Source: a virus. From it: a stretch of 33,237 nucleotides of DNA. The notes under the pieces were generated by a model, which saw nothing but the letters and a program-made list of their open reading frames with translations, made no database searches and had not been told where the DNA came from. The position numbers and the translations under genes are program-made. The stretch spans positions 1 through 33,237 of IMG/VR virus record IMGVR_UViG_3300047457_000275, one strand, 5' to 3'. This document shows positions 128 through 29,435 of the stretch, piece after piece (positions within the stretch are counted from its first letter, which is position 1; the number at the start of each line of letters is the position of its first letter).

Positions 128-689
128 CATCCTCGACTTCGGCAACAACATAGACACGCACGGTCCGTGGGACGAAGATCGCATATGGAGCTTAGATAAA
201 AGGCCGGCAAAGGGAGGTGTTGCGCCTCATAAAAAATGCCCGAATTGCGAGTATCTTTGCCATAACAGCTTCAAGGAATGCCCAGGTTGCGGATTCAAAT
301 TCCAAGCTCCAGCGCAGGAGATCATGCCAGATGTAATTCTTCAGAAAGTGCGTTTTGATATTATGAATAAAAAGAAGGACATACCTCTGGAGGTCTTGGC
401 AAGTTTGCACAAGCAAAACCCGGATGGAATGAAGAAGGGGTTTGTTCTGCATCAAATGTGCGATTGCTATTGCGAGGGGGAGTATTGGCTGCGTCTCATC
501 AGCAAAACAGGAAATTCGAAATATGAGGCAAGGAAAAAGGCGGAGTTAATAAATGAGGATACTGGAGAACCATACTATAAATGCTTTCAAAAACGATGCA
601 AGAACTGTCAGAATTCAAGATCCAATCACAGTGCTTCCTTTACCACTGGAACAACTACCCCGAAGAGCGGGGGCGGTTATTCGCGGTAA
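1..689 (+). CDS. SF2 DEAD/DEAH helicase, C-terminal part (5' end wraps from 32243)
   Basis: This is the C-terminal part of a superfamily 2 helicase; the rest is at 32243-33237. Joined through the circular junction (32243-33110 plus 1-689) it gives 518 residues. The frame is open from base 3. The part here carries motif V (TTGFDDPE) and the arginine-finger motif VI (QMVGRGSR, joined residues 316-323). A zinc-ribbon pair CPNC and CPGC follows (cysteines near 369, 372, 383 and 386). Family knowledge: such phage helicases unwind or remodel DNA during replication or recombination with ATP. The TTG at 63 is internal and is not a start. The 3' end overlaps the VRR-NUC gene by 109 bases, and a nuclease-helicase pairing suggests joint work on branched DNA. 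The product class is firm, the exact role is inferred. Confidence 0.92.
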   Translation, partial: TTGFDDPETEVVILYRATTSLALYLQMVGRGSRVTATKSKFIILDFGNNIDTHGPWDEDRIWSLDKRPAKGGVAPHKKCPNCEYLCHNSFKECPGCGFKFQAPAQEIMPDVILQKVRFDIMNKKKDIPLEVLASLHKQNPDGMKKGFVLHQMCDCYCEGEYWLRLISKTGNSKYEARKKAELINEDTGEPYYKCFQKRCKNCQNSRSNHSASFTTGTTTPKSGGGYSR

Positions 690-940
690 ACAATAATAGC
701 GATAACAAGGTCCGAGCCGTCATGAATCGAGATATGGGCGTCGTGGCCGGCGTTGCAGATATGATGTATCTAAGCGACAATGGCTTAATCGCTATTGAGT
801 TTAAGACGGTCATCGGGAGGCAGCAGCCCAAACAAAAGCAATGGCAGGAGACAATCGAAGCGGCAGGCTACAAGTACCACATCGTCCGATCACTGGATGA
901 CTTTCTCAAAGCAATCAACAAACCAACCACCAACCAATGA
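581..940 (+). CDS. VRR-NUC domain nuclease
   Basis: The 119-residue protein is nearly all VRR-NUC domain, the PD-(D/E)XK-like fold of phage Holliday-junction resolvase-like and repair nucleases. Visible catalytic pattern: an acidic residue near the start (E11), GVAD with D60, then IEFK with E73 and K75, and downstream glutamines (QQPKQKQW) typical of the family. Start is ATG 581 or ATG 596; both keep the full domain, while the next ATG (721) would cut it. It overlaps the helicase gene by 109 bases and shares an ATGA junction with the next gene. Likely job: cutting branched DNA or replication and packaging intermediates. The domain is certain, the substrate is inferred. Confidence 0.88.
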   Translation: MLSKTMQELSEFKIQSQCFLYHWNNYPEERGRLFAVNNNSDNKVRAVMNRDMGVVAGVADMMYLSDNGLIAIEFKTVIGRQQPKQKQWQETIEAAGYKYHIVRSLDDFLKAINKPTTNQ

Positions 941-1344
941 ACAGACAAAAGGAATTCTACTACTACGCCGAGCAGGTAACAAAGCGCACCGGCGTTGGCC
1001 TGCGTCAGATGCAGAGCCAAGACCGTCACCGCGAAGTCGCCGAAGCGCGATACTGCCTCATGCATTTGATGCGCAGTAAGATGCAGATGACGTTGATGGA
1101 GATAGCCAAGCTGATGCGTCGCCATTATTCAACTGTCCACCACGGCTTGGAGGTCATCTACATTCTGCAGGTGACCATGAACAAGTACACTTGGCTCAAA
1201 GAAATTAAGCGCTACGAACCGCACAACATCAGACCAAAAGATACTATGTATATTTGCGACCAATGTGGAGGCACGCACGATCATACTAACGATGTACACC
1301 AGCGGCAAGCTGCGGCAGATAGCGAGGCAGCTTGCTACGCATGA
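937..1344 (+). CDS. Stand-alone DnaA domain IV-like DNA-binding protein
   Basis: The 135-residue protein has a helical segment at about residues 33-76 that resembles DnaA domain IV. It shows the pattern AEARYCLMHLM, then TLMEIAKLM, then STVHHG in place of the DnaA signature DHSTVxxA. The AAA+ ATPase part of DnaA is absent. Near the C-terminus, C107, C110, H114 and H116 (CDQCGGTHDH) could bind zinc. The start is ATG 937, overlapping the previous stop (ATGA) and directly preceded by the CA-rich leader AACCAACCACCAACCA. By family logic it may bind the phage or host origin, or displace host DnaA. That role is inference; it could also be a transcription regulator. Confidence 0.7.
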   Translation: MNRQKEFYYYAEQVTKRTGVGLRQMQSQDRHREVAEARYCLMHLMRSKMQMTLMEIAKLMRRHYSTVHHGLEVIYILQVTMNKYTWLKEIKRYEPHNIRPKDTMYICDQCGGTHDHTNDVHQRQAAADSEAACYA

Positions 1345-1834
1345 CCTTGCGCCTGACCTCGAACATGAACTCGTCATCAGACTCTATGAAAAGCCAGCCG
1401 AAAAGATCGAAGCCATGCACGCCGGAGGCTACCTCAAATTCTACATCGTGCGAATGGCTATCAACCTTTACCGAAGTCGAAACTCTAAATTTCAACGCGA
1501 CTTCCGACACAATGAACTGCGCGAGGAAATCGCCGATCAGCAGCTGGAGGCAGCTGATGAGCCGTATGATGCAAGGCCTGATGCAATATTTAACCGGGCG
1601 CTCGAAGTCATGGATGGCTGGGCAAAAGCCGGCGCTTACCCGTACGACAAGCAGCTATTCCTCCTTTGGCTCGATTTGGGTAACAAGAAACTCATCGAGC
1701 GACTCACCAAGATACCTTGGCGATCAATTTCGTACACAATCAACAACTGCAAACAACGACTAAAACATGAACTTGGATCTGATTACTATATTGCTTTTGG
1801 CCACTATGACTTCCTTGGCGATGAACCGCTATAA
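1292..1834 (+). CDS. Sigma-70/ECF-like sigma factor (putative late regulator)
   Basis: Two regions resemble an ECF-type sigma factor. The region 2-like part reads LEHELVIRLYEK, then GYLKFYIVRMAINLYRS. The region 4-like helix-turn-helix near the C-terminus reads KKLIERLTKIPWRSISYTINNCKQRLK. Such proteins guide RNA polymerase to promoters. ATG 1292 gives 180 residues; a GTG at 1265 would add nine and overlap the upstream gene more. The reading frame overlaps both neighbours, so it is part of one operon. A repeated promoter-like motif, GATATTT, upstream of structural genes makes a late-gene sigma role attractive, but that link is inference. It could instead be a diverged helix-turn-helix regulator. 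Confidence 0.6.
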   Translation: MYTSGKLRQIARQLATHDLAPDLEHELVIRLYEKPAEKIEAMHAGGYLKFYIVRMAINLYRSRNSKFQRDFRHNELREEIADQQLEAADEPYDARPDAIFNRALEVMDGWAKAGAYPYDKQLFLLWLDLGNKKLIERLTKIPWRSISYTINNCKQRLKHELGSDYYIAFGHYDFLGDEPL

Positions 1835-2021
1835 CGTCCTGCCAGCGTGGTACTACCGCTACGCGAGGTGCAAGCCGCTGACCTGCCTGACCTGCCTCGC
1901 CTTTTGGTGGGGCGTAGTTCTGACGATCACAGCCTCCAGCCTTTCTTGGCTGCTTGCCATACCTGTCGGCCTATCGGCTGCCGGGTTGACGGTGCTGACC
2001 ATTAAACTTTCCGAAAAATGA
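1767..2021 (+). CDS. Small two-helix membrane protein with cysteine cluster
   Basis: The 84-residue protein has a hydrophobic N-terminus (LITILLLATMTSLAM) and a second long hydrophobic stretch (about residues 44-79). Between them is a cysteine cluster, CKPLTCLTCLAFWWG. The cluster next to a membrane helix resembles short DUF1360-like membrane proteins in other phages, though I only recall this likeness. It overlaps the sigma-like gene by 68 bases and shares an ATGA junction with the next gene. Function is unknown; an inner-membrane role in host takeover or superinfection exclusion is possible. Confidence 0.6.
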   Translation: MNLDLITILLLATMTSLAMNRYNVLPAWYYRYARCKPLTCLTCLAFWWGVVLTITASSLSWLLAIPVGLSAAGLTVLTIKLSEK

Positions 2022-2245
2022 CACTTGACGAAGCAATGCAGGTGCTATCGGTGAAGCACAAGCTTGACGGCTACTATGCGTCGCAGACGATGTCGCTCTC
2101 ACCGGGCGAGGTGTCGATGCTGGAGAACGTCGCCAACGCGAACGGCTATGGACGGACGAACTGGTGGTGTGGATCATGCGCCGTTTCGCGCTTACAGGAA
2201 ATGATGGCAGACGCACAGGAATCACGCGCACGATTTGCGAGTTAA
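2018..2245 (+). CDS. Hypothetical protein with WCGSC motif
   Basis: The 75-residue protein starts at ATG 2018, overlapping the previous stop as ATGA. It is soluble in character. The sequence NWWCGSCAVSRLQEMM near the end holds a CxxC pair that could bind metal or act in redox. The N-terminal half (LDEAMQVLSVKHKLDGYYA) is predicted helical. I do not recognise a family. The promoter-like motif for the next gene begins two bases after its stop, so it may be the last gene of the replication and regulation block. Confidence 0.55.
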   Translation: MTLDEAMQVLSVKHKLDGYYASQTMSLSPGEVSMLENVANANGYGRTNWWCGSCAVSRLQEMMADAQESRARFAS

Positions 2246-2246
2246 T

Positions 2247-2255
2247 GATATTTAC
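2247..2255 (+). promoter_or_regulatory. GATATTTAC late-type -7 element
   Basis: GATATTTAC stands with its first base 13 nt before ATG 2260. The same motif and spacing occur at 6037, 11682 and 12274. It resembles the Bacteroidota -7 box TAnnTTTG with two changes. At this distance, transcription would begin at or next to the ATG. Confidence 0.55.
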
Positions 2256-2259
2256 AACT

Positions 2260-2727
2260 ATGCCACTACCTAAACCAACAGACAGCGAAAGCAAGACCGA
2301 CTTCATCCAGCGATGCATGGGTGATGACAAAACTGCCAGCGAGTTTCCCAGCCAGCAGCAGCGCTACCTCGTCTGTGCGAGGCAATGGGAGGCAGACCGC
2401 AACGCCTTTGCTGACACCTACGCAGACTACGGCGAGGGTGTGCGCAACAACGCGAAGCGCGGCATCGAGCTGAACGAGCGCAACGGCAACAAGTGCGCAA
2501 CGCAGACAGGCAAGGTGAGGGCGCAGCAACTGGCCAAGGGCGAAGGCATCAGCGTTGAAACGATCAAGCGCATGCACAGCTACCTATCGCGCGCAGAAAC
2601 ATACTACAACAATGCAGACTCAACGAGCGACTGCGGATACATCAGCTACCTCCTTTGGGGCGGCAAGGCTGCGCTCGGATGGAGCAGAAACAAGCTACGA
2701 GAATTAGGTGAACTAAACGAAGATTGA
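2260..2727 (+). CDS. Conserved phage protein of unknown function, near packaging genes
   Basis: The 155-residue protein has two recognisable blocks. An N-terminal block has the pattern DFIQRCMG, then QQRYLVCARQWE. A C-terminal block reads KCATQTGKVRAQQLA, then KRMHSYLSRAE and GYISYLLWGG. Both blocks occur, by recall, in phage proteins encoded near portal, protease or capsid genes, but no activity is known to me. ATG 2260 is preferred over an upstream in-frame GTG at 2164 because a GATATTTAC element sits just before it and the upstream extension lies inside the previous gene. It opens the packaging and structural block. Confidence 0.65.
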   Translation: MPLPKPTDSESKTDFIQRCMGDDKTASEFPSQQQRYLVCARQWEADRNAFADTYADYGEGVRNNAKRGIELNERNGNKCATQTGKVRAQQLAKGEGISVETIKRMHSYLSRAETYYNNADSTSDCGYISYLLWGGKAALGWSRNKLRELGELNED

Positions 2728-2728
2728 C

Positions 2729-2920
2729 ATGCAGACACAACCCGACATCACTATTGAACAGGACGTACGCGCATTGGATTGGCAGGATCGCGGACACCTG
2801 TTGACAAACCTGTCAAACGTGTTGGATTCACTCGAAGACAGCACAGCACCCAACGCGATGCACGCGAAGGTCGCGGTCATAGAAAAGATCATTGACATCG
2901 TTACAAACATGGAGGCATGA
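2729..2920 (+). CDS. Small acidic hypothetical protein
   Basis: The 63-residue protein is acidic and helical (VLDSLEDS, then KVAVIEKIIDIVTNMEA). It follows the previous stop by one base and overlaps the small terminase start as ATGA, so it is very likely translated with them. I recognise no domain. Its size and place before terminase suggest a small packaging accessory, but nothing in the sequence shows this. Confidence 0.5.
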   Translation: MQTQPDITIEQDVRALDWQDRGHLLTNLSNVLDSLEDSTAPNAMHAKVAVIEKIIDIVTNMEA

Positions 2921-3330
2921 ATAAAGCAGGAAGACCGCCCATTTTTGAAACGCCCGAAGAAATGTGGGAGGCGTTTTGCGAGTATAAGGAGGAAACGAAA
3001 AAGCGACCTTACTTGCAGCACGATTTTGTCGGCAAGGAGGGGCAAAGTGCGTACCGGGAGAGGGAGCGTCCGTTGACGTTTCGTGGCTTCGAGGGGTATT
3101 TGGCAGAGCAGGGGAGGTGCTACGACCTACGCGATTACGAGAGGCAGGAGAGCGATCACCACAAGAAATTCTCCCACATACTAACACGCATACGCGCGAC
3201 GTGCGATCGCGACATGATTGAAGGCAGCGGTGCAGGTGTTTACAACGCCAGTATTGCTGTTCGCGTTCTTGGCTTGGTCGACAAACAGCACAACGAAGTC
3301 AAAATCGAGCAACCTCTCTTCAATGACTGA
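2917..3330 (+). CDS. terS: Terminase small subunit
   Basis: The 137-residue protein opens with GRPPIFETPEEMWEAFCEY, the usual start of Bacteroidota phage small terminases (gp3-like packaging proteins). It has a central helix-turn-helix-like part (LTFRGFEGYLAEQG), then FSHILTRIRATCDRDMIEGSGAG and an ending that mirrors NLKNxxGWKD-type tails of the family (VLGLVDKQHNEVKIEQ). Small terminases form rings that bind the packaging site on phage DNA and pass it to the large subunit. Location two genes before the large subunit agrees. It overlaps the next gene by 8 bases. Confidence 0.82.
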   Translation: MNKAGRPPIFETPEEMWEAFCEYKEETKKRPYLQHDFVGKEGQSAYRERERPLTFRGFEGYLAEQGRCYDLRDYERQESDHHKKFSHILTRIRATCDRDMIEGSGAGVYNASIAVRVLGLVDKQHNEVKIEQPLFND

Positions 3331-3505
3331 CGCAATCACCGATGCCGTTGTTGTCCAACTTAGGACAAGAGCGAAAAAGGGCAAGTTGAAGTACGGCACG
3401 ACAATGGAACGCGATGACCTGACCTTTGCCGAGTGGATTCAGCACTTACAGGAGGAGTTGATGGATGCGGTCGTTTACATTGAGAAGATTAAGCAATTAG
3501 ATTGA
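3323..3505 (+). CDS. Mini MazG-like protein
   Basis: ATG 3323 gives 60 residues: a KGKLKYGTTM segment, then FAEWIQHLQEELMDAVVYIEK. The last part matches the EExxDAxxY metal-binding helix of MazG-like nucleotide pyrophosphohydrolases, and the KYGTT segment is common in short phage relatives. A full MazG domain needs a second acidic helix (ExxD) that I do not see, so this may be a truncated or helper form. A longer in-frame start at 3218 exists but lies wholly inside the small terminase gene and is not credible. The stop overlaps the TTG start of the large terminase. Confidence 0.5.
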   Translation: MTDAITDAVVVQLRTRAKKGKLKYGTTMERDDLTFAEWIQHLQEELMDAVVYIEKIKQLD

Positions 3506-4713
3506 GTTTCAAATACACAACGGCAATTAAACGCATTCGGCAGGTGGCCGCTCGGAAGAAGGTGATTCAGGGCGGGACATCTGCTGGATGTTGACCCCCA
3601 CTGGGCAACTGGTGGGGGAACGGAAAAACCATCGCCATCCTTGCAGTGCTTATCAACATCGCCGCCAAGGCCAAGACCGAGATCAGCGTCGTATCTGAAT
3701 CAATCCCACACCTACGACGTGGTGCGATGAAGGATTTTGGCAAGGTCATGCAGTGGACGAACCGCTGGCGTGACGAAGGTTGGAACAAGACGCTGCTAAC
3801 CTACACCTTCGCCAACGGCAGCACGATTGAGTTCTTCAGCGCAGACCAGGAGGCTAAGCTACGCGGCGCACGGCGGCAGGTGCTATACATAAACGAAGCC
3901 AACAACATCGACTTCGAGGCGTACCATCAGCTGGCAATCCGAACGAGCGAAGCCATCTACATCGACTTCAACCCTGTGTCGGAGTTTTGGGCGCACACGG
4001 AGGTGCTGAAAGAACCGGATAGCGAACTGGTAGTCTTGACGTATCGCGATAATGAGGCGCTGCCAGCGACGATCCGCGATGACATCGAAGCGGCGCAGGT
4101 CAAGGCGGCGACATCGACGTACTGGGCGAACTGGTGGAAGGTCTACGGCTTAGGTGAGGTCGGATCACTGCAGGGCGTGGTCTTTGACGACTGGCAGCAG
4201 GTCGACGGCATCGACTTCGCTGGTGACAAGCTGGTAGCTATCGGATTGGACTGGGGATATACGAACGATCCCACGGCGGTCGTTGCGGTCTACAAGCGTG
4301 GCAGCGCTATCCTCCTGCACGAACTACTCTACCAAAACGGACTGACCAACCAAGACATCGCTGACCACCTGCGCAAGCTGGGCATCGGCAGGTCGTGGCC
4401 GATCATCGCGGACAGTGCTGAACCCAAGAGCATCGAAGAGGTGCATCGCCTTGGCTTCAACATACACCCGGCGACGAAGGGCGCCGATAGCATCAGGAAC
4501 AGCATCGACATCCTAAAGCGGCAGCCGCTACTGGTGACGCGCGAATCGACGAACCTGATCAAGGAGTTGAGGAACTACACTTGGGACACGGACAGGACTG
4601 GTGCGTCGCTTGGAGTGCCGATTGACAGGTACAACCACGCCATTGATGCGGTGCGTTACGTCGCGCTCAACAAGCTATCAGCCAACGCCGGTGGTAGGTA
4701 TGTGATCATGTAG
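3502..4713 (+). CDS. terL: Terminase large subunit, Walker A split by a putative ribosome-bypass gap
   Basis: This is the ATP-driven DNA packaging motor and nuclease. Codons 1-29 (TTG 3502 to GGA 3588) encode a basic leader ending VIQGGTSAG. After one more codon (UGU) comes a UGA stop at 3592. The same frame resumes at GGA 3622 with K-T-IAILAVLI and runs to 4713. Skipping 3589-3624 gives 391 residues with a perfect Walker A (GGTSAGKT, 24-31), Walker B-like YINEAN (near 120) and nuclease aspartates in GLDWGYTNDP (237), IADSAEP (291) and NHAIDAVRY (369). Without the skip, the only downstream product would start at a GTG (3646) and lack the catalytic lysine. The TTG start overlaps the upstream TGA (TTGA). 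The gap folds as a hairpin between matching GGA codons, as in T4 gene 60. The alternative is a recently inactivated gene or an assembly error, less likely since both sides are intact and in frame. Confidence 0.85.
3589..3624 (+). other. Putative translational bypass element in terL
   Basis: The 36 bases follow the take-off codon GGA (3586-3588) and end in the landing codon GGA (3622-3624). An in-frame UGA is at 3592-3594. Stem CCCCCACTGG (3595-3604) pairs with CTGGTGGGGG (3609-3618), with eight Watson-Crick and two wobble pairs in RNA, closed by a GCAA tetraloop (3605-3608). GTT (3590-3592) can also pair with AAC (3619-3621) around a two-base bulge, so nearly the whole gap forms one hairpin. 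The layout (matched GGA codons, stop within the 5' arm, tetraloop hairpin, basic nascent peptide) follows the T4 gene 60 case. It could also be viewed as a tiny palindromic insertion with a 3-bp GGA duplication. Confidence 0.75.
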
Positions 4714-4725: not shown

Positions 4726-5313
4726 ATGCACGCAGTCAAACACTTCTATCAGATGATCCTTGCCAAGCCGACGGCGTGGGAGGGGCATGGCAACTTTGCG
4801 ATACACCTAACCGACGCGCTTAAACCAAAGGTAACGGTCGACCTTGGCGTTGACTACGGATTCTCGACCTTCTGCTTTGCTGTCCTTGGCCACGGCAAGG
4901 TTTACGGCATCGATTCATTTGAAGGCGACGAACACGCAGGAAAGCGTAGCACCTATGACCACGTTATGGGATTGCGTGAACACTTCCGGGCGACGTTGAA
5001 GATGAAGAACCTCTACTTCATCAAAGGCTACTTCGACGACGTAGCGAAACGCTGGGAGAAGAAGATCGACATCCTGCACATCGACGGCCTGCACACCTAC
5101 GATGCGGTCAAGAACGACTACACGAAGTGGCTGCCATTCCTCAACCCTGATGGCGTCGTTTTGTTTCACGACACGATCAGCTTCCCGCATGACGTTGGCA
5201 AGTTCTTCGCAGAGTTGCAGGGGTATAAGCACAACTTCGAACACTCACACGGTCTGGGTGTGTGGACGCAAAGCGAGGCGACGTTTGAGAAAATACAAAA
5301 ACTGCTATCATGA
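4726..5313 (+). CDS. Class I SAM-dependent methyltransferase (Methyltransf_24-like)
   Basis: The 195-residue protein has the Rossmann methyltransferase motif I as VDLGVDYGFST (about 38-48), an acidic motif II in GIDSFEGD (D63) and ILHIDGLHTYDAV followed by LNPDGVVLFHD. The last block is typical of the Methyltransf_24 family, which includes sugar and small-molecule O-methyltransferases. It sits alone between terminase and tail genes with its own TAAATTTGC element, the pattern of an acquired cargo gene. With the glycosyltransferase at 14608 it might decorate virion or host glycans; that is inference. The substrate cannot be told from sequence. Confidence 0.78.
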   Translation: MHAVKHFYQMILAKPTAWEGHGNFAIHLTDALKPKVTVDLGVDYGFSTFCFAVLGHGKVYGIDSFEGDEHAGKRSTYDHVMGLREHFRATLKMKNLYFIKGYFDDVAKRWEKKIDILHIDGLHTYDAVKNDYTKWLPFLNPDGVVLFHDTISFPHDVGKFFAELQGYKHNFEHSHGLGVWTQSEATFEKIQKLLS

Positions 5314-5882
5314 GTATATTGAACAAAATCACCGTCGACCAGTTTCAACGCATTGTATCTATCGAGGCCAACGCGATCTACACGGCCAGCGACAAGAAGA
5401 TCGGCGTAGTTGCCGTTATCGACAACGTGCCAATCGAGCAGGTCAAAAAGATGACGATTGCGGAGGTCAACAAGCGATACGCAGAGATCAACGCTGCGAG
5501 TAAATCGCTATCAACGCTGGCTGCCAAACAATATGCTAAGGTTGCCGGCAAGTGGTATCGGTTTGAGTGGTTCATAGACGAAATCAGCGCGGGGCAGCTC
5601 GTGGAGCTTTATTCCTACGACATGACCAGCGAGCAGGGCGTTATTGAGAACTTGCATCTGATCTTGGCGACACTATCGAGGGAGTGCAGGGTGTGGAAGT
5701 GGTGGCCGAAGGCATACGACGGCAAGGGACACAAGCAGCGCGCAGAGGCGATGTTGCAGATGAACATGGGTGACGTTTGGGGTTATGCCGCTTTTTTTTT
5801 GCAGCTTTCAGAGCCTTTGTTGACGATTATGCGGAAGTCTTTGACGGAGCAGCAGAAGAAGATGACAACGGCCAAGGGGTAA
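5310..5882 (+). CDS. Tail assembly chaperone, unshifted form (gpG-like)
   Basis: The 190-residue product starts at ATG 5310, overlapping the methyltransferase stop as ATGA. It has an aromatic, acidic core (WYRFEWFIDEIS, then LHLILATLSRECRVWKWW). Near its end it crosses a run of nine T (5792-5800) and continues to a short basic tail. In long-tailed phages, chaperones of this kind coat the tape measure during tail assembly and come in a short and a frameshifted long form. The following -1 frame carries a typical second domain. Assignment rests on this arrangement and on likeness to Bacteroidota phage proteins by recall. Confidence 0.65.
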   Translation: MSILNKITVDQFQRIVSIEANAIYTASDKKIGVVAVIDNVPIEQVKKMTIAEVNKRYAEINAASKSLSTLAAKQYAKVAGKWYRFEWFIDEISAGQLVELYSYDMTSEQGVIENLHLILATLSRECRVWKWWPKAYDGKGHKQRAEAMLQMNMGDVWGYAAFFLQLSEPLLTIMRKSLTEQQKKMTTAKG

Positions 5883-6016
5883 AGAAGCCAAACTACGGCT
5901 GGGTGGGCGTGGTCTACCGCATGGCGGGAAAAGATCCGCTGCGCATGGAGCAGGTCTTCAACATGCCGGCGCGGGAGTTCATGAACGCGCTCTTGCTGAT
6001 GAAGGCGATGCCGTAG
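5310..6016 (+). CDS. Tail assembly chaperone, -1 frameshift product (gpGT-like)
   Basis: If ribosomes slip back one base on the T run (gcT TTT TTT TTG), residues 1-163 of the short form join to a second reading frame that ends at 6016. The predicted protein has 235 residues (segments 5310-5798 and 5798-6016). The added part has an acidic linker (DGAAEEDDNGQ), then GWVGVVYRMAGKDPLRMEQVFNMPAREFMNALL. This matches the T domain style of tail chaperones in related phages. The second frame has only a poor TTG start (5777), so independent translation is unlikely. The product therefore depends on frameshifting, which has not been shown here. Confidence 0.65.
5791..5801 (+). promoter_or_regulatory. 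Slippery T9 run for -1 frameshifting
   Basis: C followed by nine T and a G gives the zero-frame codons GCT TTT TTT TTG, which contain T_TTT_TTT, an ideal -1 slippery heptamer. The run is long enough for sequencing error to be worth excluding, but the conserved frame on each side fits a real signal. Confidence 0.65.
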
Positions 6017-27189: not shown

Positions 27190-27456
27190 ATGAGTACATA
27201 CCAAAAGAAAGACGGCGACATCAGCGTCTTCACCAACAACTCCGACAATGCCAACGCTCCCTCGTGGAAGGGCAACCTACTGCTCAACGGCGTCGAATAC
27301 CAAGTCGCGCTGTGGCGCAAGCAAGGCGCTAAGGGCGAGTTCTTGGCCGGCAACGTGCAGGTCAAGCAGCAGCCATCGCCGAACAGCGCGGACTACTACG
27401 CTGGCAAGCCGAAGGCGGAGTCGCATTTGCAACCTTCAAATGATTTGCCGTTTTGA
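27190..27456 (+). CDS. SSB-like small protein ending in DLPF
   Basis: The 88-residue protein has the pattern YQKKDGDISVFTNNSDN, then APSWKGNLLLNGVEYQVALWRKQGAKGEFLAGNVQV, which looks like a small beta-barrel. It ends with a flexible tail and the tip SNDLPF, which resembles the acidic C-terminal tip of bacterial SSB (DDIPF) used to call repair proteins. It may bind ssDNA or mimic the SSB tail. Similar short proteins occur in other Bacteroidota phages by recall. The leader (AACCCAACCTAATTTT) again has a CCAACC box. Confidence 0.6.
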   Translation: MSTYQKKDGDISVFTNNSDNANAPSWKGNLLLNGVEYQVALWRKQGAKGEFLAGNVQVKQQPSPNSADYYAGKPKAESHLQPSNDLPF

Positions 27457-29435
27457 AATTCGGTAGCGTTTGTTCAGGCATTGAAGCTGCTTCAGTCGCG
27501 TTTGAGCCATTGGGATTTACAGCCCAGTGGTTCAGCGAGATTGAACACTTCCCTTCAGAAGTTCTGAAGTACAGATACCCCACTGTACCAAATTTGGGGG
27601 ATATGACTAAACTAACAGAAAATGAAACATTCAGAGCCAGTTCAATTGACCTTTTGGTCGGAGGAACACCCTGCCAGTCCTTCAGCGTGGCTGGCCTTCG
27701 AGGAGGACTTGCTGACCCACGAGGAAACCTTATGCTCACCTTTCTCTCATTGGCTGACGCAAAAAAGCCAAGGTGGATTGTCTGGGAAAACGTCCCCGGT
27801 GTGCTGTCAAGTAACGGAGGAAAGGATTTTGGCACCTTCCTCGGGGCGTTGGGGGAACTCGGGTATGGGTTCGCCTACCGGGTTCTTGACGCTCAACACT
27901 TCGGAGTCGCACAAAGACGCAGAAGAGTGTTTGTTGTCGGATACCTTGGAGATTGGCGACCTGCCGCAGCGGTTCTATTTGAGCGCGAAAGCCTGTCAAG
28001 GGATATTAAACCGAGCAGAAAAAAGAGGCAAGAAGTTACCACCGATGCTAAAGGAGGCGTTGGAGAGGCAAGCGATGTCAGCTGCGCGGGAGGAAATGTA
28101 AGTCCCTGCGTTACGAGCAAATGGAAGACTGGCTATGGAGGGCCGAGTGGAAGCAATGAAACTGGGAATATGGTTTATGAGCAAGTCGCTCATCCAGTTC
28201 ACGCATTTAAGGTTCGTGGTGGGTGCGAAGGAGGAGGCAAAGGTTATTTGGGCGAGGATGAAAAAGCATTTACTATTTCTACAACGCAGGATAAACAAAT
28301 CGCTCAACCCATACCGATACTCGCTGGGGAACATCCACAAAAGGGGGTCAGCATTGATGTATGTCCAACACTGCCGGCCGCAATGGGAATGGGTGGAGGC
28401 CACACACCATTAGTGCCTCATCCTGTCGCTTATTCCTTTGATTCTCTTGCTTCCAACTCAATGAAATCATCCAATCCCAATAGTGGATGCAGGGAGGTTC
28501 AAACGAGCAAGACCATTGACACGACCACTCCTGAACCATCAAAGAATCAAGGAGGTATTGCAATCGCTCAACCATTTCGCAAAGTACGCAGAGCGCAATC
28601 CGAAACCGATTTTGAAACCTGGGAGAAAGACGAGAAAGCAAACACGCTGAATTGCTTTGACCAAGGGGATGTAAGGAGTACGAATGTTGTTGCTCAACCG
28701 ATTACGATGGAAAAGATTGCAGGCCCAATAGACGCGAGTTACTACAAAGGCCAAGGGTCACGACAAGGCGGGGAAAGAGAGTTTGTCGCTCAACCCATTC
28801 AAATTTGCTTTAATGATGCGAATGGGAAAAGAGCAGACAGGCCAAATGGCGGATGTTATATTACCGAAAATCCCAAAGCAAGTCCAACAGTTACCTGTGC
28901 CGAAAGCGACTTAAAGGTATTGCAACCCATTGCCGTGGACTGGAGAACTGCACAAGTTGACCAAGGCATCACTCAAACGCTTAAGACTGACCTTGCTAAA
29001 ATGAGCGGCCCTTGTGTAGCCGTGGACACCTACAACTACACCACCAACAACCATACCACGCAGACCATTCGTACCAATACAAGCACCGAGCATATTGGAG
29101 CCGTGTTGCAAACAAAATCGGCAGGCTTTTTACCAACACAAGGCTCTGCCGCAAAAGGAATAGGGTATAGTGAAGAAATGGCCCCAACATTAAGGGCTGG
29201 GTGTGATTCGTATGGAGTTCATACTCCGCAAATGGCTATCCGAAGACTGACCCCCAAAGAATGCGAACGCTTGCAGGGATTTCCCGATGATTGGACGCAA
29301 ATCCCCTACCGCAACAAACCTGCTGACCAATGTCCTGATGGGCCAAGATACAAGGCTTGCGGCAACTCAATGGCAGTTCCTGTGATGCGGTGGATAGGGC
29401 AAAGGATTCAACTAATAGACACAATCATAAATTAA
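27453..29435 (+). CDS. DNA (cytosine-5) methyltransferase with long variable region
   Basis: The 660-residue protein has the C5 methyltransferase motifs. Motif I is FGSVCSGIEAASVAFE, motif IV GGTPCQSFS (catalytic C74), motif VI WENVPGVLS (E112) and motif VIII QRRRRVF (about 154-160). Near the end are RRLTPKECERLQGFPDDW and GNSMAVPV. The part between (about 170-590) is unusually long and holds irregular repeats that end in (V/I)AQP or (V/I)AHP. It may carry several target recognition domains. It likely protects phage DNA from restriction. TTG 27453 overlaps the previous TGA. A second frame (27622-28101) lies within it. Confidence 0.85.
   Translation: MKFGSVCSGIEAASVAFEPLGFTAQWFSEIEHFPSEVLKYRYPTVPNLGDMTKLTENETFRASSIDLLVGGTPCQSFSVAGLRGGLADPRGNLMLTFLSLADAKKPRWIVWENVPGVLSSNGGKDFGTFLGALGELGYGFAYRVLDAQHFGVAQRRRRVFVVGYLGDWRPAAAVLFERESLSRDIKPSRKKRQEVTTDAKGGVGEASDVSCAGGNVSPCVTSKWKTGYGGPSGSNETGNMVYEQVAHPVHAFKVRGGCEGGGKGYLGEDEKAFTISTTQDKQIAQPIPILAGEHPQKGVSIDVCPTLPAAMGMGGGHTPLVPHPVAYSFDSLASNSMKSSNPNSGCREVQTSKTIDTTTPEPSKNQGGIAIAQPFRKVRRAQSETDFETWEKDEKANTLNCFDQGDVRSTNVVAQPITMEKIAGPIDASYYKGQGSRQGGEREFVAQPIQICFNDANGKRADRPNGGCYITENPKASPTVTCAESDLKVLQPIAVDWRTAQVDQGITQTLKTDLAKMSGPCVAVDTYNYTTNNHTTQTIRTNTSTEHIGAVLQTKSAGFLPTQGSAAKGIGYSEEMAPTLRAGCDSYGVHTPQMAIRRLTPKECERLQGFPDDWTQIPYRNKPADQCPDGPRYKACGNSMAVPVMRWIGQRIQLIDTIIN
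27622..28101 (+). CDS. Overprinted protein inside the cytosine methyltransferase gene
   Basis: The 159-residue frame starts at ATG 27622 and lies fully inside the methyltransferase gene in another + frame. Its sequence looks like a real protein: LTFWSEEHPASPSAWLAFEEDLL, ILAPSSGRWGNSGMGSPTGFLTLN, SLSDTLEIGD-like LLSDTLEIGDLPQRFYLSAKACQGILNRAEKRGKKLPP. I recall a widespread unnamed phage protein family with the same blocks (APSSGxWxNxGMGSPTxFLTL and LPQRYYLSxKACxGILRRAEKRGK). If so, both frames are under selection over 480 bases. Function is unknown; it could assist or regulate the methyltransferase. A database search was not possible here. Confidence 0.6.
   Translation: MKHSEPVQLTFWSEEHPASPSAWLAFEEDLLTHEETLCSPFSHWLTQKSQGGLSGKTSPVCCQVTEERILAPSSGRWGNSGMGSPTGFLTLNTSESHKDAEECLLSDTLEIGDLPQRFYLSAKACQGILNRAEKRGKKLPPMLKEALERQAMSAAREEM

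Follow-up and report, generated by a model that had tools for sequence, protein, structure and literature searches.

A 36-nucleotide gap in the Walker A motif of a phage large terminase gene, its probable translational bypass and its association with homing endonucleases

The interrupted terminase gene and its phage

The window, that is, the whole stretch of 33,237 nucleotides analysed here (IMG/VR record IMGVR_UViG_3300047457_000275), carries a large terminase gene (TerL) that is interrupted inside its Walker A motif. An earlier note on this DNA had described a frame broken by 36 nt, resuming at a second GGA with K-T, and this arrangement is confirmed on the sequence. The features concerned are as follows:

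2917..3330, plus strand: TerS (DNA-packaging gp3 family), PF16677, E=2e-13
3502..4713, plus strand: TerL gene, broken in Walker A (GGTSAG, gap, KT), with phrog_2, PF17288 and PF04466 downstream of the gap
3502..3588, plus strand: 5' coding segment of 29 codons, up to the first half of Walker A (GGTSAG); dN/dS 0.028 over 29 distinct loci of the same type
3586..3588, plus strand: putative take-off codon GGA (Gly); GGA in 51/54 gapped clusters at the G/K point versus 26/102 gapless ones
3589..3624, plus strand: 36-nt coding gap, landing codon included; identical in 54 loci with 32 distinct flanks, absent from gapless relatives
3592..3594, plus strand: UGA stop, gap codon 2; a stop lies in gap codons 1-2 in 14/16 variants
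3595..3618, plus strand: hairpin, with arms 3595-3604 and 3609-3618 and a GCAA loop at 3605-3608; stem 6 nt past the take-off codon in 16/16 variants
3622..3624, plus strand: putative landing codon GGA (Gly); synonymous with the take-off codon in 16/16 variants
3625..4713, plus strand: 3' coding segment with Walker A K-T, the remaining ATPase and the nuclease domain; dN/dS 0.035-0.115 in gapped versus 0.123 in gapless loci

The gene starts at TTG 3502 and reads LSFKYTTAIKRIRQVAARKKVIQGGTSAG, with GGA 3586-3588 as its codon 29, and the 5' peptide of 29 codons before the gap ends in ...KKVIQGGTSAG. The take-off GGA is followed by TGT TGA (3589-3594), the hairpin (3595-3618), AAC and the landing GGA (3622-3624), past which AAA ACC ATC (AAA ACC for K-T) leads into a frame that stays open to 4713. 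The segment downstream of the gap is recognisably TerL, matching phrog_2 (E = 6.9e-34), Terminase_3C (PF17288) and PF04466. The hairpin of 24 nt, CCCCCACTGG-GCAA-CTGGTGGGGG, has 10 pairs, two of them G-U. The proposed 10-bp stem with its GCAA loop thus holds, and the fold of positions 3570-3640 is stronger than that of dinucleotide shuffles (z = -3.1; 1/200 shuffles as good). Other details needed amendment. The UGA had been placed in the 5' arm and actually lies just 5' of the stem; the proposed GUU/AAC extension of the stem is found only in the 36-nt type and is not conserved in other variants; and the basic nascent peptide, counted among the bypass features, is not specific to the gap, as gapless TerL also have a basic N-terminus.

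The remaining genes had been described as intact, and the rest of the window does look like a complete phage, with TerS, portal, tape measure, replication gene and amidase; matching contig ends imply a complete circular or permuted genome. There is no homing endonuclease gene between TerS and TerL, where relatives have one.

Two further regions of the same genome deserve mention. Upstream of the tape measure, two overlapping ORFs (5310-6016; the first of 190 aa, the second in another frame and running to 6016) join at GCTTTTTTTTTG, with a T9 run at 5792-5800, and comparable T-runs occur in many related loci. This run is likely a tail-assembly-chaperone slippage site and would be a second recoding site of the same phage. 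In addition, a C5 cytosine methylase of 660 aa (27453-29432) has a Pfam match divided into two stretches, which points to a long insertion within the protein.

Recurrence and common geometry of the gap

A protein search of IMG/VR with the post-gap part of TerL returned 80 close relatives. About half of them carry an unbroken GGTSAGKT, and the remainder are gapped at exactly the same point. The exact GGA plus 36-nt gap was found in 38 IMG/VR stretches, and the 36-nt type overall in 54 fetched loci, which collapse to 32 distinct flanking sequences from many metagenomes; gap and flanks were queried as separate pieces. In 29 distinct loci, 0/36 columns of the gap are variable, compared with a pS of 0.21 upstream and 0.46 downstream. 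This invariance is partly due to the picking of exact matches, but loci found through the protein search are equally invariant. Gapped and gapless alleles share samples, as in 3300042340, where L010 is gapless and L101 gapped. The 36-nt gap in the TerL Walker A motif is real and not an artefact, and, instead of being peculiar to a single phage, it is a recurrent and probably mobile element.

In a hairpin scan, the 35/36 type proved nearly confined to the TerL P-loop (57/58 stretches). The sole exception lies near position 7182 of L331, where TTTTT follows and the hairpin looks like an ordinary terminator; possibly, the gap originated from a sequence of this sort. Separately, a single contig (L317) carries an 8-nt insertion, TAGCTAGT, among its TerL P-loop codons; an error is conceivable, and so is a very short insert that is skipped.

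By combining unbiased and pattern-based searches, 16 gap variants were collected; TerL accounts for 15, at four insertion points, and a family-A DNA polymerase for the remaining one, at a single point:

G/K point, GGA..GGA: 36a, 35a, 35b, 32a, 32b, 36b
G/K point, GGG..GGA: 37a, 37b
G/K point, GGT..GGA: variant 39
Ser/Lys point of GGTSSSKT: S1 (TCG..TCA, 39 nt), S2 (TCT..TCT, 34 nt)
Ser/Ala point: S3 (TCC..TCA, 39 nt), S4 (TCG..TCA, 40 nt)
Ala/Gly point: A1 (GCT..GCA), A2 (GCT..GCT), both 42 nt
Family-A DNA polymerase: ACG..ACG, 41 nt

The lengths are 32, 34, 35, 36, 37, 39, 40, 41 and 42 nt, leaving remainders of 0, 1 and 2 on division by three. A gap length divisible by three had been listed as a limitation; this applies to the window, whose gap is in frame, and to some variants, but those of 32, 34, 35, 37, 40 and 41 nt are out of frame. 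In spite of this diversity, the geometry is constant in all 16 variants: the distance from take-off codon to stem is exactly 6 nt, the stem base has at least four G-C or C-G pairs, and take-off and landing codons are synonymous, standing for Gly, Ser, Ala or Thr. The two codons are identical in nine (36a, 35a, 35b, 32a, 32b, 36b, S2, A2 and the polymerase); others mismatch at the third base, and the GGT/GGA and TCC/TCA combinations would need unusual wobble.

The early stop found in 14 of the 16 variants, often in an NNTTAA or NNTTAG context, directly adjoins the take-off codon in S3 only and is gap codon 2 in the other 13, so that at take-off the A site usually holds a sense codon; 32a and 32b have no stop before the hairpin loop. 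Pair 6 from the stem base is A-T, G-T, G-C, T-A or C-G across variants with pairing kept. Such changes are supportive rather than independent evidence, because the hairpin ends were set by folding. A covariation test on a MAFFT alignment of the gaps gave no support, but it is uninformative, because the arms, being of unequal length, were misaligned.

The polymerase case comes from contig L376, where a family-A DNA polymerase (499-3847) is split by a NUMOD4+HNH_3 gene. Both pieces match PF00476, the C-terminal one just below the curated cut-off. In the downstream frame, which begins at ATG 3069, the 41-nt gap follows FACT and precedes YQGT, interrupting motif B (FAxT/YQGT), which reads FALTYQGT without a gap in the polymerases of Axy22 and Pollock. 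The polymerase of the E. coli phage Pollock (KM236242) is likewise split by an HNH gene, without the gap. This case is weaker than those in TerL, because it rests on one contig that came from a scan requiring a codon match. All other candidate gapped genes beside further relatives of the homing endonuclease genes look like chance.

Homing endonucleases, probable mobility and hosts

In six variants that were found without any endonuclease search, TerL directly follows a free-standing homing endonuclease gene, which is of the HNH type in five and of the GIY-YIG type in one. The ORF between TerS and the gapped TerL matches NUMOD4 and/or HNH_3 in 37a, 36b and 32b; in 37b it matches a homing-endonuclease PHROG and is GIY-YIG-like by eye; and upstream HNH genes are present by similarity in 36a and 35a loci. 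Taking all searches together, a NUMOD4+HNH_3 or similar gene stands immediately upstream of the gapped gene in 36a, 35a, 32b, 37a, 36b, S1-S4, A1 and the polymerase. Among TerL loci with at least 1.2 kb of upstream sequence, an upstream HNH gene was seen in 11/51 gapped and 0/93 gapless ones (Fisher p = 5e-6, with no correction for relatedness). When the HNH profile was used as the query instead, twelve loci were returned in which an HNH gene directly precedes a gapped TerL, plus L389, and five of the gap variants were new. The association has exceptions in both directions: an endonuclease gene precedes a gapless TerL in L406 (HNH) and in L319, L320 and L322 (GIY-YIG-like), and most gapped loci, including the window, lack one upstream. 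In six regions bearing homing endonuclease genes that were taken from phage records, no annotated gene of this kind lies directly upstream of a gapped TerL.

From the landing GGA on, gapped and gapless alleles share 92-97% identity in several comparisons, but only 62-83% over the 75-90 nt before the gap; a diverged TerL 5' end with homology from the landing GGA is what a co-conversion tract would be expected to leave. Variant 32b has a near-uniform 5' end and gap (pS 0.017) and a diverged downstream part (pS 0.45), a pattern that, as far as sequence comparison can tell, is the mark of recent spread. Gap presence is patchy on the TerL tree, with at least nine changes of gap state, eight of them forced by well-supported branches.

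Some individual loci show further peculiarities. In L002 (2370-2984), the HNH frame starts with MSFKYTTA, which repeats the beginning of TerL; this suggests an entry of the endonuclease into the TerL 5' end, with a start for TerL formed anew downstream. Near position 3200 of L395, sequence with an HNH gene precedes the P-loop of a TerL-like gene and a group I intron was suspected, but Rfam gave no intron match in this region, only tRNAs. Apparent tRNA 3' ends, recognised by appearance only, stand directly before TerL in the gapless relatives L003, L054 and L067.

All gapped loci are uncultivated contigs. The closest TerL in a bacterial genome (97%) belongs to a Chitinophagaceae MAG and is gapless, and other relatives occur in Flavobacteriaceae and Sphingobacteriaceae; the hosts of the gapped phages are therefore probably Bacteroidota. 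A search of 50,697 phage records found no TerL with at least 60% identity to that of the window or of L143. The nearest phage-record TerLs examined (FPSV-S2 and TCUEAP1) are gapless, with no gapped isolate found among such records, and 28 TerL relatives in bacterial genomes are gapless as well. Among 799 genomes of two bacterial families, those that L210 and L216 represent, a pattern search hit seven sites, mostly in dnaA, and all of these were judged coding coincidences.

Probable programmed bypassing, its alternatives and known systems

The 36 nt are best read as a coding gap that is skipped by the ribosome (programmed bypassing) and that forms part of a mobile cassette with a free-standing homing endonuclease, a reading that appears highly probable from the comparisons above. 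It fits best because gap lengths fall in all residue classes, the codons are synonymous, the hairpin is fixed, the downstream frame is under purifying selection and homing endonuclease genes are neighbours. The bypass component taken by itself is likewise well supported, but it is inferred, in the absence of RNA, ribosome or protein data.

Synonymous landing codons have a ready explanation in bypassing, where a single peptidyl-tRNA would re-pair at the landing site; neither splicing nor excision needs a codon phase. In the eight variants found without demanding a codon match (36a, 35a, 32a, S1-S4 and A1), the naive joint chance of it is 1.2e-9, or about 3e-6 by hand if they are pooled to five origins. 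When the gap shifts within the motif, the landing codon tracks the meaning of the take-off codon (Gly-Gly, Ser-Ser, Ala-Ala). At the G/K point, gapless alleles use GGT 37, GGA 26, GGC 25 and GGG 14 times; the test of take-off GGA in gapped against gapless clusters ignores relatedness, and several of the searches demanded a landing GGA, though not a take-off GGA.

The alternative that survives best, though unlikely, is removal at the RNA level, in which a tiny intron or an enzyme-processed hairpin would be cut out and the ends ligated into a contiguous mRNA. Such removal would restore TerL at any gap length, and a stable hairpin flanked by short repeats could offer a target to a nuclease and a ligase. 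To our knowledge, however, 32-42 nt is far under the size of any known self-splicing intron. No Rfam family matches at the gap site, and 36 nt hold no catalytic intron structure. Moreover, the flanking match is in codon phase and preserves the amino acid in every variant, neither of which splicing requires, and the closest arrangement, T4 gene 60, is bypassed and not spliced (PMC3014915; a further source on its bypass is PMC11194080).

Excision at the DNA level is considerably more doubtful. The gap would then be a mini-transposon or recombination target, with functional TerL supplied by a gap-free fraction of the genomes, as the hairpin shape of the element and the shared sample 3300042340 might suggest. 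Yet in many variants the take-off and landing codons are not identical repeats and would give no consistent product, the 35/36-type hairpin would hardly be so restricted to the TerL P-loop (57/58 stretches), and gapped alleles have other TerL 5' ends than gapless ones, contrary to what excision would leave.

The stop codon within an essential motor gene could also mean that gapped alleles are dead or that the gap is an assembly artefact, an explanation that can hardly be maintained. Many independent metagenomes contribute to the 32 distinct loci of the 36-nt type, gapped clusters at the G/K point number 54, and apart from the gap the window represents a complete phage whose contig ends match. 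Post-gap dN/dS is 0.115 (36a), 0.035 (35a) and 0.044 (32b), compared with 0.123 in gapless relatives. Selection is thus not relaxed: TerL past the gap is, by this measure, under purifying selection as in gapless relatives, and the protein beyond the gap is therefore evidently made. Equally implausible is a working or regulated two-piece TerL made by stop read-through or re-initiation: the window gap is a multiple of three, but variants of other residue classes are out of frame, which excludes plain read-through, read-through would in any case split Walker A, and re-initiation would lack a start codon near the landing site that takes in the P-loop lysine.

Under programmed bypassing, the ribosome would leave the take-off codon, skip the gap and land on the synonymous codon, restoring GGTSAG-KT at the junction. 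A stem-loop close to the mRNA entry can lodge in the A site and prevent tRNA from binding, being effective at 11-12 nt in the assay described (PMC7282821); it is plausible, although inferred, that the hairpin occludes the A site at take-off in a similar manner. As for mobility, the inferred course is that the endonuclease cuts TerL alleles without a gap at their conserved P-loop codons, that the gap prevents renewed cutting of the target, and that repair copies endonuclease, TerL 5' end and gap together. In the window, the endonuclease may have been lost or never present, leaving the gap alone.

A broader proposal, held with less confidence yet still favoured, is that of a widespread mobile class in which a homing endonuclease is paired with a portable bypass signal (about 6 nt, a C/G hairpin, a spacer of 1-10 nt and a codon synonymous with the take-off codon) at Gly, Ser, Ala or Thr codons within catalytic motifs of essential phage genes. 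The gap would be skipped efficiently without the T4 nascent-peptide signal and would serve as a resistance marker, allowing invasion without an intron or intein. Efficient bacterial bypassing has so far rested essentially on T4 gene 60, a curiosity for decades. If the proposal is true, natural variants that differ in codons, length and hairpin but keep one fixed take-off-to-hairpin distance make the essential features visible and allow comparative tests of the mechanism, a skipped gap can serve homing endonucleases instead of a self-splicing intron, and phage genomes hold seemingly broken essential genes that annotation pipelines mis-call. No description of these gap elements was found in a literature search that excluded subscription journals and preprints.

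Group I introns and inteins are known for endonuclease-linked invasion of conserved catalytic motifs in phage genes, but unlike the TerL gap they are removed by splicing and measure hundreds of nucleotides. A 29-nt hop has been reported for an adhesin of Prevotella loescheii, also a member of the Bacteroidota; it concerns a single chromosomal gene, functioned poorly in E. coli and had no follow-up (PMC5009743). Another example is provided by the byp elements of Magnusiomyces capitatus mitochondria (81 sites), likewise many short inserts skipped in translation with take-off and landing codons not always identical. They are described as independent of mRNA context, and neither a fixed hairpin geometry nor an endonuclease linkage is reported there (PMC5009743). 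The earlier note knew of no described case in a terminase. A candidate is already in print for the terminase of Streptomyces phage Hau3, but it is of another kind, being centred on a UUA codon and thought regulatory, with no hairpin or endonuclease cassette mentioned in the section available (PMC5009743).

The resemblance to T4 gene 60 on which the earlier note relied remains the best fit overall, with its geometry amended. The gap of T4 is 50 nt long, versus 32-42 nt here; its stem pairs part of the take-off codon and holds the stop, whereas here the stem starts 6 nt past the take-off codon, no T4-type stem-loop spans the take-off and stop region, and the stop usually comes one codon later. 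Ser, Ala and Thr codons are also used here, the gene and hosts are others, and the endonucleases, compared directly, have no sequence relation to the T4 stretch. The nascent chain is 29 codons in the window and 46 in T4, where bypass needs a KKYK signal lying some 30 residues away from the P site (PMC5009743); the chain in the window appears too short for a signal of this type. The T4 locus consists of gene 39, the defective HNH gene mobA, 60.1 and gene 60 with its gap (PMC3014915), and another source describes a protective role of that gap (PMC5009743). In the T4 sequence examined, the gap follows DADHDG, a catalytic motif. By the title of their 2011 paper, which is cited in PMC8300805, Bonocora and others are said to have presented endonuclease and gap as one mobile cassette. 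In both systems, a non-coding gap lies near the start of the frame of an essential gene and inside a catalytic motif, with GGA take-off and landing codons, a hairpin in the gap, a stop near take-off, an HNH homing endonuclease upstream and gapless relatives. The larger finding is that such gaps form a class linked to homing endonucleases, in which T4 gene 60 is the only member to have been studied.
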